Positions 22,488-34,478 of a stretch of 43,802 nt of DNA are shown one piece after another (position 1 is the stretch's first letter; each line of letters begins with the position of its first letter). The position numbers and the translations under genes were made by a program. Where the stretch lies: NCBI GenBank assembly GCA_016840465.1, contig JAEOSH010000015.1:1-43802 (forward strand), given 5' to 3'. Under the pieces are notes generated by a model. The model did no database searches, had not been told where the DNA came from, and saw only the letters and a list, made by a program, of their open reading frames with translations. The DNA comes from Candidatus Baldrarchaeum yapensis. GTDB lineage: Archaea; Asgardarchaeota; Baldrarchaeia; Baldrarchaeales; Baldrarchaeaceae.

Positions 22488-22514
22488 TAAGGCAGAAACG
22501 TATAGTGTTGCATT
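22488..22514. repeat. Box shared with the 24.19 kb locus
   Basis: GGCAGAAACGTATAG occurs here and again at about 24190-24205, each time just upstream of a minus-strand acyl-CoA-related pseudogene. GTGTTGCATTCGT next to it has a near match (GTGTTGCATTTGT) beside repeat copy B near 32130-32145. It could be an operator or a scrap of the repeat's flank. Confidence 0.4.
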
Positions 22515-22545
22515 CGTTGCTTTTATGCACTTTTCCATGAGCCAA

Positions 22546-24182: not shown

Positions 24183-24219
24183 GTCATCTGGGCAGAAACG
24201 TATAGAACTTTTGCGGCTC

Positions 24220-24414
24220 AGAACCTTTATAAAGGAAGGCCACGTTACGCCAAGTGAGCTCCGCCCGGGATGTGGGAAGGGCGGGGTGAAGGAGTCAGAT
24301 GGATGTGCGGAGTCATCGTTCCCCGCGAAAAGCCCATCGATGAGGCTCGAGGCGGGAAGGCTCTTTGTCATGCGTGCATCAAAAGTTATGAAAGTGGCAG
24401 AGAGTCAGAACGGT
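24220..24414 (+). repeat. Structured repeat, copy A (decayed)
   Basis: Nearly the same 195-base sequence occurs inverted as copy B at 31881-32104. Both begin AGAACCTTTATAAAGGAAGG, a TATA-like palindrome, and end GAGAGTCAGAACGGT. Stem CCGCCC/GGGCGG (24261-24266 with 24279-24284) is intact. The stem GCGGGG/CCCCGC of copy B is weakened here, and GGCGGG/CCCGCC has become GGCGGG/TTTGTC, pairable only through G-U. Copy A lacks about 24-29 bases present in B. Most differences are transitions toward A/T, as in a decaying copy. Weaker similarity extends about 20 bases further upstream. Confidence 0.8.
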
Positions 24415-24597
24415 TGCAATCTCCCTATCAAACTCCTTTGCAGTCCTAACGACCTTTTCTACGAGTTCAGCGTTGCTCCTTACCAGAACTCCCTTCTTGA
24501 GGAAAACGTTATCCTTAAGTCTGACCTTCACGTGTCTTCCCATGACGATCGAAAGCGTCGCCATCGGGAACTTATACGCACCAATGTTGCTATAGTA
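24415..24597 (-). pseudogene. C-terminal fragment of a BKACE (DUF849) enzyme
   Basis: The minus strand reads GAYKFPMATLSIVMGRHVKV, then LKDNVFLKKGVLVRSNAELV and VRTAKEFDREIAT. This is the highly characteristic C-terminal end of beta-keto acid cleavage enzymes, including 3-keto-5-aminohexanoate cleavage enzyme of lysine fermentation. It stops at the edge of repeat copy A, and its N-terminal side is lost where a plus-strand DUF35 fragment begins near 24590. It is therefore cut at both ends by rearrangement. Confidence 0.75.
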
Positions 24598-24826
24598 AAC
24601 TACTCCTATGAAGGACAACCGATGAAACCACCGTATGTACTGGGAATGGTGAGGCTTGACGGGGCGGATAATGACTTTAGGCACTTCATAGGTGAGGTCG
24701 ATCTGAGCGACCTAGAGAAGGCCGCAAAGTAACTTGGAGAGTAAGCTTGGCGCGAAAGTTGAGGTTGTTTAGAACGAAGAAAGGAAAGGGATTTCACTGA
24801 TATTAGGTACATCATAAGGATTAATC
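24589..24826 (+). pseudogene. C-terminal fragment of a second DUF35 protein
   Basis: The plus strand encodes YSYEGQPMKPPYVLGMVRLD and HFIGEVDLSDLEKAAK, matching the OB-fold half of the broken DUF35 gene at 22028. It is then disrupted: a shift leads to NLESKLGAKVEVV followed by TAG where Trp would be expected, then NEERKG, then another shift to TDIRYIIRIN. The zinc-ribbon half is absent. The fragment abuts the BKACE fragment head-to-head. Confidence 0.7.
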
Positions 24827-31504: not shown

Positions 31505-31880
31505 TAAGCATCGCACCAATTACTGCTCACGGAAAATTCTGGGATGAGCAGTGTATACACGTATTGGCGAATTTGCATTTTAGGAGATGTCTTCCTTCAT
31601 TTTCCAGCGGTGGTAGAATGTCCGTATTTGTATGTTGTGCTCGGAAGTACCAATAACAGCCTCATCTGAGGAAATGAAAACCTTTTACTCCGACATGCGA
31701 GTTTTACATTCTTTTGTTCCGTAAAATGCGATGATAGATTTTCTAGTGGTTTCTTTGTATTAGTGCGTTCCCGGTGAGTTTATCCGGCGCATTTTGCAGG
31801 TTTATCAATACTTTGTAAGAGGTGGAGATTACTTTCTCTGAGGAGGCCTTGTTGAGAAATATGCTCGTTTCCCCTTTTGG
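31505..31880. other. Non-coding stretch before repeat copy B
   Basis: No gene, tRNA or rRNA is visible. Frames here are short and lack starts. An open frame that enters from the repeat continues to 31743 on the minus strand, but I see no family pattern in it. Confidence 0.4.
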
Positions 31881-32104
31881 ACCGTTCTGACTCTCCGCCA
31901 CTTTCATAACTTTTGATACACGCGTGGCGGGGAGCCTTCCCGCCTCGGGCCTCATCGATGAGCCTTCGCGGGGAACGGTGACCCCGCACATCCATCTGAC
32001 CCCTTCGCTCCGCTCTTTCGGGCTTTCCCTCCCTCCTACCGCCCTTTCCACAATTCCGGGCGGAGATCACTCGGCGTAACGGGGCCTTCCTTTATAAAGG
32101 TTCT
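31881..32104 (-). repeat. Structured repeat, copy B (well preserved), candidate ncRNA
   Basis: This 224-base sequence on the minus strand is a close match of copy A. The 5' end carries CCTTTATAAAGG, usable as a TATA box. Downstream are perfect stems CCGCCC/GGGCGG (32058-32063 with 32039-32044), GCGGGG/CCCCGC (31982-31987 with 31968-31973) and GGCGGG/CCCGCC. It lies in a gap of almost 1 kb without genes. Changes between copies keep pairing in one stem via G-U but alter amino acids in the shared reading frame, so RNA rather than protein is likelier. An IS200/IS605-end or TnpB guide-RNA relic is one possible origin. Confidence 0.65.
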
Positions 32105-32435
32105 AGGCCACAAAGGTTGTCGTATGTTACAAATGCAACACCATATGGACAGGTTTCTGAACATTCGCCTCGTGCCGAAGTAACAGGAGGTTGCGAATAC
32201 GTCATTCACCAAGATTTTGGCATTTGGGTTCTTGAGAAAACGCTGATTCCGGTCACTTTAATTCTCGAGTTGTGGGTACGATCTTCGGATTGCATATGTA
32301 GGAATCGCTCGAATAATTCCGTATATGGGCTCTATAATGCCATAAAATCCCACAACTACGTCGCATAACTAATGGGTTTCGTATTATCATATTGAAATCG
32401 TGGTCGAGCAGGAATAATACCTAGCATTTGGTTCC
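32105..32435. other. Non-coding stretch between repeat B and korA operon
   Basis: No convincing gene. A plus-strand frame (32117-32368) has no recognisable motif. ATGCAACACCATATG at about 32132-32146 resembles ATGCAACACTATACG upstream of the DUF35 pseudogene on its own strand. Confidence 0.35.
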
Positions 32436-33671: not shown

Positions 33672-34478
33672 ATGAAAGAGCACTTTGCTATCAAGTATTT
33701 GAGGAGAGAAATTCTCCCGACAGTCTTCTGTCCGGGATGTGGGAACGGCATAGTGATTAACTGCTTCCTCAAAGCGGTGAGCGACCTTGGCTATGAAGAC
33801 CTCTCCGGGTTTGCGTTCGTTTCAGGCATAGGATGTGCCTCTTGGTGCATTTCGCCGTACTTTAAGGCGGATACTCTACATACCCTTCACGGAAGACCAA
33901 TAGCATTTGCAACCGGACTTAAGTTGGCAAGACCAGATCTTCAGGTAGTTGTGATCAGTGGAGATGGTGACCTAGCAGGAATCGGGGGGAACCACCTCAT
34001 ACACGCGGCGCGGAGGAATATGGATCTCCTCGTGATATGTATTAATAACTTAAACTACGGGATGACGGGAGGGCAGGTTTCCCCTACAACCCCCGAAAAT
34101 GTCACTACCACGACGAGCCCCTATGGAAATATAGAGCCGCCCTTCAGACTAGCTGAGTTGGTTGCGGCGGCAGGTGCGAATCTATCAGCCAGATGGACGA
34201 CATACCACGTGGGGCAGATTATATCCACTATAAAGAAGGGGCTTAAGAAGGAGGGCTTCCGCTTTATTGAGGTGATATCCCAATGTCCGACAAACTTCGG
34301 TAGAAGGATAGGGATTGACAAGCCGCCGGATCTCGTCAAGTGGATCAGGAGTATTTGCACCGTTAAGAAAGAGAATTCGAACGAAAAACTTAGGTTGGGA
34401 ATAATATGTGAACGCTATCGCCCGGGCTACGTTTCTGTCCTCAAAAGTTTGATGGAGAGGGTGAGAGGTGAGGGTTGA
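33672..34478 (+). CDS. korB: 2-oxoacid:ferredoxin oxidoreductase beta subunit
   Basis: 268 residues, one base after korA. It carries FCPGCGNGIVINC, ISGDGDLAGIGGNHLIHAAR (thiamine diphosphate motif) and NNLNYGMTGGQVSPTTP, all typical beta-subunit signatures. The Cys pair and thiamine site place the catalytic centre here. It overlaps the gamma subunit by 11 bases. Confidence 0.93.
   Translation: MKEHFAIKYLRREILPTVFCPGCGNGIVINCFLKAVSDLGYEDLSGFAFVSGIGCASWCISPYFKADTLHTLHGRPIAFATGLKLARPDLQVVVISGDGDLAGIGGNHLIHAARRNMDLLVICINNLNYGMTGGQVSPTTPENVTTTTSPYGNIEPPFRLAELVAAAGANLSARWTTYHVGQIISTIKKGLKKEGFRFIEVISQCPTNFGRRIGIDKPPDLVKWIRSICTVKKENSNEKLRLGIICERYRPGYVSVLKSLMERVRGEG

Follow-up and report, generated by a model that had tools for sequence, protein, structure and literature searches.

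Protein-less IS607-type elements with their own predicted promoter and a candidate TnpB guide RNA scaffold in an Asgard archaeon

Palindrome-associated transposable elements (PATEs) are short derivatives that encode no protein and are moved in trans. Ktedonobacter racemifer reportedly carries stand-alone omega-RNAs of the nuclease IscB at many loci away from the nuclease gene, and these are said to be usable in trans. Prokaryotic MITEs are short protein-less derivatives moved in trans as well (PMC3852290). In IS200/IS605 transposons of the ISDra2 type, the scaffold of the TnpB omega-RNA (reRNA) overlaps both the tnpB 3' end and the element's right end, and its guide is taken from the flank (PMC8612924, PMC10278001). 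It has been proposed that TnpB in cis makes a guided cut in the empty site and that the repair restores the element (PMC11870625). In IS607 transposons an RNA-guided TnpB works with a RAGATH-18-derived reRNA scaffold of ~190 nt, a 3' guide and a G-rich TAM beside the left end (PMC11061315). As only 64% of RAGATH-18 RNAs adjoin an IS607 TnpB (PMC11061315), scaffolds distant from tnpB probably exist.

We analysed a stretch of 43,802 nucleotides (the window) together with its own genome (G000), an Asgard MAG of the Baldrarchaeia order, 2.27 Mb in 100 contigs and 96% complete. G002 (locus L114) is of the same order, though G000 belongs to a different family, and G004 (L172) is of the same phylum. 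The repeats described here share with the RAGATH-18 systems the IS607 type, a TnpB of the RNA-guided kind, a scaffold of about that length, a putative 3' guide and a G-rich motif beside the left end. In contrast to them, the archaeal scaffold starts inside the zinc-finger codons of tnpB, whereas the bacterial reRNA is described as coding-independent; it has no Rfam match, and it occurs in solo copies with what looks like their own promoter. The overlap with a tnpB 3' end and a right end, and a putative flank-derived guide, are as in the ISDra2 type, but a serine recombinase with GG exchange replaces the Y1 TnpA, the scaffold is another one and the element contains no tnpB. Unlike MITEs, and unlike PATEs, the elements have no terminal inverted repeats and have retained a promoter and a complete guide RNA scaffold. 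The IscB case is bacterial and concerns an HNH nuclease, whereas here an IS607 TnpB in an Asgard archaeon is accompanied by mobile units equipped with a TATA box. IS607 TnpB guide RNAs, trans-encoded omega-RNAs (for IscB) and protein-less relatives of IS605 and IS607 are each already known. In the papers that we searched, promoter-equipped mobile IS607 omega-RNA elements without TnpB were unreported, as were the archaeal scaffold and its permuted form; with due caution, these may be new. With a probability of about 0.7, we take the repeats to be protein-less, non-autonomous elements that descend from an archaeal tnpA-tnpB transposon of IS607 type and whose guide RNAs would work in trans through one TnpB.

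The original prediction was of two inverted copies, A at 24220-24414 (+) and B at 31881-32104 (-). Both are present and form long inverted repeats, whose arms measure 86, 87 and 53 nt and are 80-89% complementary, well beyond what chance would give. They are not alone. With copy B as the query, copy A was recovered at E=1.6e-49 together with ~16 further copies in the genome (~17 in total), and the number of places rose to 19 with a full-length young copy as the query, several of them at 97-99% identity, and to 21 with a covariance model. The repeats are thus a dispersed family of ~20 elements, most of them 255-285 bp long, and a left-end-only remnant of the family was found in the window at 22491-22537. 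The elements and their parts in the window are as follows.

31882-32145, perhaps to 32166 with the degenerate tip, minus strand: copy B, IS607-derived protein-less element, recognisable extent
24190-24413, plus strand: copy A, an older protein-less element derived from IS607, inserted close to the 3' end of a minus-strand BKACE gene
22491-22537, plus strand: left-end-only remnant
32091-32098, minus strand: archaeal TATA box TTTATAAA of copy B
24227-24234, plus strand: TATA box TTTATAAA of copy A
31882-32065, minus strand: omega-RNA scaffold of copy B, from P0 to the CAGAACGG end
32058-32065, minus strand: P0 5' arm CTCCGCCC of copy B, pairing with 32008-32015 and corresponding to zinc-finger codons of TnpB
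32008-32015, minus strand: P0 3' arm GAGCGGAG of copy B
31882-31992, minus strand: helices P1-P2-P3 of copy B together with its right end (107 bits, E=5e-30 with the R1 covariance model)
24259-24286, plus strand: shortened P0 helix of copy A, CTCCGCCC / GGGCGGGG
24302-24413, plus strand: helices P1-P2-P3 of copy A together with its right end (100 bits, E=6e-28 with the R1 covariance model)
31862-31881, minus strand: putative guide of copy B, TCCAAAAGGGGAAACGAGCA, the host flank after CAGAACGG
24414-24433, plus strand: putative guide of copy A, TTGCAATCTCCCTATCAAAC, which together with the left flank restores the BKACE C-terminus

Most copies start with GGG(G)CAGAAACGTATAGTGTTGCATT and end with GAGTCAGAACGG, with a total length of 255-285 nt. 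The shared start given before, AGAACCTTTATAAAGG, proved to be internal, as the left end of the element is GGGCAGAAACGTATAGTGTTGCATT and lies upstream of it. The shared right end was placed correctly at CAGAACGG, except that its final T belongs to the flanking DNA: the following base is T in 11/17 copies and C, G or A in the other 6/17, so that it does vary between copies as had been noticed. The excess of T after the terminal GG (P ~0.001 for 27% T) hints at a GG|T insertion preference. The left tip GGGCAGAAACG is not an inverted form of the right tip CAGAACGG, so there are no terminal inverted repeats. The left tip of copy B is degenerate, copy C1 has lost most of the scaffold and copy A has lost parts of its left end and of its P0 loop through two deletions. 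The earlier description of copy A as drifted toward A/T with one stem kept through G-U pairs was right about the stem (P3), but the deletions matter more than the drift.

The parentage of the family is given by one of the copies, at C96:27912-28026, which is the 3' end of a tnpB gene. This locus has the order left end - tnpA - tnpB - right end, splits a sulfatase-like reading frame (identified by eye) and is 83-84% identical in DNA to the repeats over its 3' end. Its TnpA scores 237 bits with the IS607 transposase model NF033518 (cut-off 110) and combines an N-terminal HTH with a Resolvase (serine recombinase) domain. Its TnpB matches guided_TnpB (NF040570, 162 bits against a cut-off of 100), has a C-terminal zinc-ribbon/RuvC domain (Pfam Cas12f1-like_TNB) and is related in the PDB to TnpB and Cas12f chains; the three RuvC acidic residues are present by eye (VDVNENN, ALESL, ADRD). 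The other TnpB-like genes in G000 are 27-61% similar or partial, which leaves one intact cognate TnpB, that of C96, beside ~18 copies without tnpB. C96 is without the promoter segment of the solo elements and we therefore do not equate it with their immediate progenitor.

An IS200/IS605-like element had been suggested before. The suggestion of a mobile-element end with a guide scaffold was sound, but the family was another one: the Y1 (HUH) TnpA of IS200/IS605 (PF01797) had 0 matches in the 96% complete G000 and the parent TnpA is an IS607 equivalog, so the elements are of IS607 type and an IS200/IS605 origin was rejected. The tip reads GGG(G)CAGAAACG, the right end is ..AACGG in nearly all copies, the left junctions are G-rich and no target duplication was seen. 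IS607 is reported to exchange at GG, with (G)GG preferred and target duplications absent (PMC6188088), and our junctions, GG right end and lack of duplication fit this behaviour. Four 9-bp direct motifs lie ~20-60 bp into the left end of IS607 (PMC6188088); in copy A2, motifs that contain TGC recur at 9-bp intervals from ~18 to 53 nt inside the left tip, with a putative role in recombinase binding.

By their shared helices, the repeats are TnpB omega-RNA (reRNA) scaffolds. In the solo copies the scaffold is ~185 nt long and consists of the helices P0-P3, which the repeats have in common with the 3' ends of tnpB genes in distant archaea. TnpB relatives occur in Archaeoglobales, Thermococcus, Bathyarchaeota, Thermoproteota, Jordarchaeia and other archaea. 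In C96 and in tnpB relatives from Asgard, Thermococcus, Bathyarchaeota and other archaea, the scaffold overlaps the tnpB 3' end as well as the transposon's right end. P0, whose arms are zinc-finger codons (for example CUGUGCCC / GGGCACAG), is followed by GAUGUG-P1-CCGUUC-P1'-GAAAGC-P2-GGGAAGG-P3-CAGAACGG. The two arms of a helix vary in concert. The arms of P1 are GGGG/CCCC in C96, GCCC/GGGC in the loci L071 and L072 and GCGG/CCGC in the solo copies. Those of P3 are CUCUCCGC/GCGGAGAG, or CUACCC/GGGUAG (L066), CCUAGCGU/ACGCUAGG (L071) and GGAGAC/GUCUCC (L063). RNAalifold on the whole element mixed left-end pairs with scaffold pairs, and the helices were therefore defined by comparison with the tnpB relatives.

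The predicted stems were borne out by this comparison. For P1-P3, counted in 24 sequences (8 solo copies and 16 tnpB 3' ends, with relatives at 44-69% protein identity), 93.4% of positions were paired and double changes occurred at 16/22 pairs. Double-change cells numbered 73, where shuffled data gave 21.2 +/- 3.4 and slid controls 7-15. In P0, counted in 22 sequences, 96% of positions were paired and there were 32 double-change cells, compared with 10.3 +/- 2.4 after shuffling. Among the solo copies alone (n=16), 95.6% of positions were paired and the 3 double-change cells did not differ significantly from the 1.6 in shuffled data, because these copies are too similar to one another. The P3 hairpin of copy A is fully paired through G-U pairs and compensatory changes. 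Some pairs are broken in copies A and B, in copy B one each in P0, P2 and P3, so individual copies may be dead. The fold z-scores of single sequences were only moderate (-1.9 for copy A and -1.5 for copy B) and single-sequence energy was for that reason not counted as evidence.

At the gathering cut-off the window had no Rfam hit, and at E<=5 the copies and the tested relatives gave none beyond chance-level matches, for example to miRNA models. Membership of RAGATH-18 was rejected, as that model matched at neither threshold. The two candidates put forward earlier, a new non-coding RNA family and an element end with a guide scaffold, are then one and the same thing. A covariance model now exists for an archaeal IS607 omega-RNA family that Rfam does not match, together with its cognate TnpB.

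The reading frame shared by copies A and B (MRxEAGRL..KVMKVAESQNG) is readable in most copies and has a mild third-position excess (13/27 variable sites), as a gene for a small conserved protein might. We give this explanation next to no weight, since the parent TnpB ORF ends in this very frame (..SMNPETGRLSATHASKVVKVAESQNG) and the amino acid is changed in 12/18 variable codons. Insertions shift the frame in copies A and C80, and in the relatives it stops before or within P3. It had been noted before that substitutions change the amino acids freely, and this holds; the frame is nevertheless not arbitrary but a relic of the TnpB C-terminus.

The solo copies have lost tnpA and nearly all of tnpB and have retained the left end, a TATA box, P0-P3 and the right end. 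The stretch with the last catalytic Asp, which lies between P0 and P1 in tnpB, is shortened to ~15 nt. The TATA-like palindrome reported at the head of both copies proved to be an archaeal TATA box (TTTATAAA) rather than a terminus; in 15 copies TTATA is found 30-32 nt upstream of the P0 5' arm. The usual distance from TATA to start in archaea would put the start of transcription at the edge of P0, so the element looks like one that carries its own promoter. When the solo copies were compared pairwise, the TATA segment was 91% identical and most stems and motifs of the scaffold were 90-96% identical, against 68% for the spacer between TATA and P0 and 72% for the P3 loop. We regard this segment-wise identity as the best evidence that promoter and scaffold, beyond the ends, are maintained.

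These copies could also be inert IS607 deletion derivatives, MITE-like and moved by TnpA, in which scaffold and TATA are passive leftovers and no guide RNA works. The covariation within solo copies alone is not significant, copy C1 has kept its ends and promoter after losing most of the scaffold, and the near identity of the young copies could reflect recent ancestry only. On the other hand, the part that was kept is exactly a promoter and the full P0-P3 (~185 nt), which is far above what IS607 ends need; in the same copies spacer and loops have diverged far more than TATA, stems and motifs, and the distance from TATA to P0 is nearly constant. In addition, two other species have the order left end, TATA, scaffold and right end, with the RNA rearranged and its pairing kept. 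We therefore consider inert derivatives unlikely, if by some way the strongest competitor of maintained guide RNA units.

The two other species belong to a sister family (G003, locus L181, and G001, locus L182). Their tnpB-less elements have a left end of their own, GGGCARTAACATAGAGTGAAAC, and a TATA ~33 nt before the RNA domain, followed by a P1 of the solo type, P2, P3 and CAGAACGG, with extra hairpins inserted in the P1 loop. The 5' domain reads AAGCC-GAAU-GCCC-loop-GGGC-GAUAUGUGGGG, where the order in tnpB is GCCC-GAUAUGUGGG..AAGCCCGAAU-GGGC; judged from this order, it seems to be the same internal-loop element after a natural circular permutation. The permuted hairpin is present in the predicted fold of G003 but not clearly in that of G001. 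If the permutation is real, it would point to selection on the RNA fold independent of a coding role. As solo-only covariation is not significant, the case for continued selection on the RNA once tnpB was gone is made by the segment-wise conservation together with these G001 and G003 elements.

The covariance model search had been recommended for the genome and its relatives. In 228 genomes of the phylum it found scaffolds in 16, and at many inspected loci a TnpB-like or eroded TnpB gene lies upstream. In G054 (L174) a tnpB-less scaffold has broken zinc-finger codons and a P0 that is a perfect 9-bp helix, GCAUCACCC/GGGUGAUGC. The copies in G078 have only short eroded tnpB remnants, and a TATA is not obvious there. 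Viral contigs yielded no relative with a protein of the window as the query, and a solo-copy-specific pattern had 0 hits in a further scan.

What follows CAGAACGG differs from copy to copy, as expected of a guide taken from the insertion site. When the flanks of copy A were rejoined through GG, the match to the BKACE profile was extended from 205-262 to 205-273 of 274 and the score rose from 53 to 71.9 bits; this empty site needs one more G than the present junction has, a 1-nt ambiguity. It reads ..TCATCTGG-GG-TTGCAATCTCC.., so the motif beside the guide of copy A is G-rich. The TAMs measured for bacterial IS607 TnpB are AGGAG/GAGGG (PMC11061315), and by this analogy the G-rich left flanks of our elements fit the TAMs of an IS607 TnpB. 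The BKACE-like gene that copy A splits (24414-24684 in the window and the left flank to 24191, minus strand) is probably a pseudogene, since only its last part, profile 205-273 of 274, is recognisable in frame. The MAG is fragmented and its contigs break at repeats, so some copy flanks, and hence guides, may be mis-assembled. The copies on C39 (L044, 1-25) and C69 (L047) have identical left flanks and different right flanks, which could be explained by recombination between copies or by a join made at the repeat during assembly.

Dispersed, promoter-driven units with diverse guides and one nuclease at hand might suggest that the host has adopted the guides, as domesticated trans regulators or for defence, with TnpB aimed at host or invader sequences. 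This we hold to be very improbable: each flank is just the place where the element inserted, a gene is interrupted by copy A, the copy number is expanding (several copies are 97-99% identical), and between species no conserved position or guide was seen.

For elements that use their guides on their own behalf, we propose the following mechanism. The TnpA of C96, the single intact parent, would move the solo copies by exchange at the GG dinucleotide. Each copy would be transcribed from its own TATA, with a start at the 5' edge of P0, and the RNA would run through the right end into host DNA, which would serve as the guide. Loaded in trans into the C96 TnpB, this RNA may send the nuclease to the empty site of that copy, where a G-rich TAM ending in GG is followed by the guide sequence, and cleavage and repair of the empty site would restore the element. 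With guides loaded in trans against their own empty sites, one TnpB would retain the whole protein-less family. Our tentative view, which we put at a little short of even odds, is that a single IS607 TnpB serves such a family in trans as a shared retention network, each member directing a promoter-driven guide against its own empty site.

One TnpB gene could in this way be programmed by ~18 scattered guide RNAs. If the guides work, retention by TnpB also benefits elements other than the transposon that encodes it, and protein-less relatives borrow it at the price of a promoter and a scaffold of ~185 nt. This would be a natural step from a transposon nuclease with one guide to one with many dispersed guides, and the question whether one TnpB can protect many elements becomes directly testable.

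Some minor observations were made alongside. A further repeat, D2 at 33727, was a chance match inside the gene for a TPP-binding oxidoreductase subunit. A single element at 5703-5958 of L045 (G000:C82) shares the left end of the family (94% over 47 nt) and the same P3 and right end, and has its own TATA, but its core is wholly different and very stable (GGGCUCCGAUUUCCGAGAGCCC..., z=-4.8); it matched nothing in Rfam beyond chance, and 224 genomes of the phylum contained no relative. At 325-620 of L169 (G172:C27), two nearly identical scaffolds of a related type form a tandem pair within 300 nt; a very short remnant lies upstream of each, and the flank after the end is the same in both.
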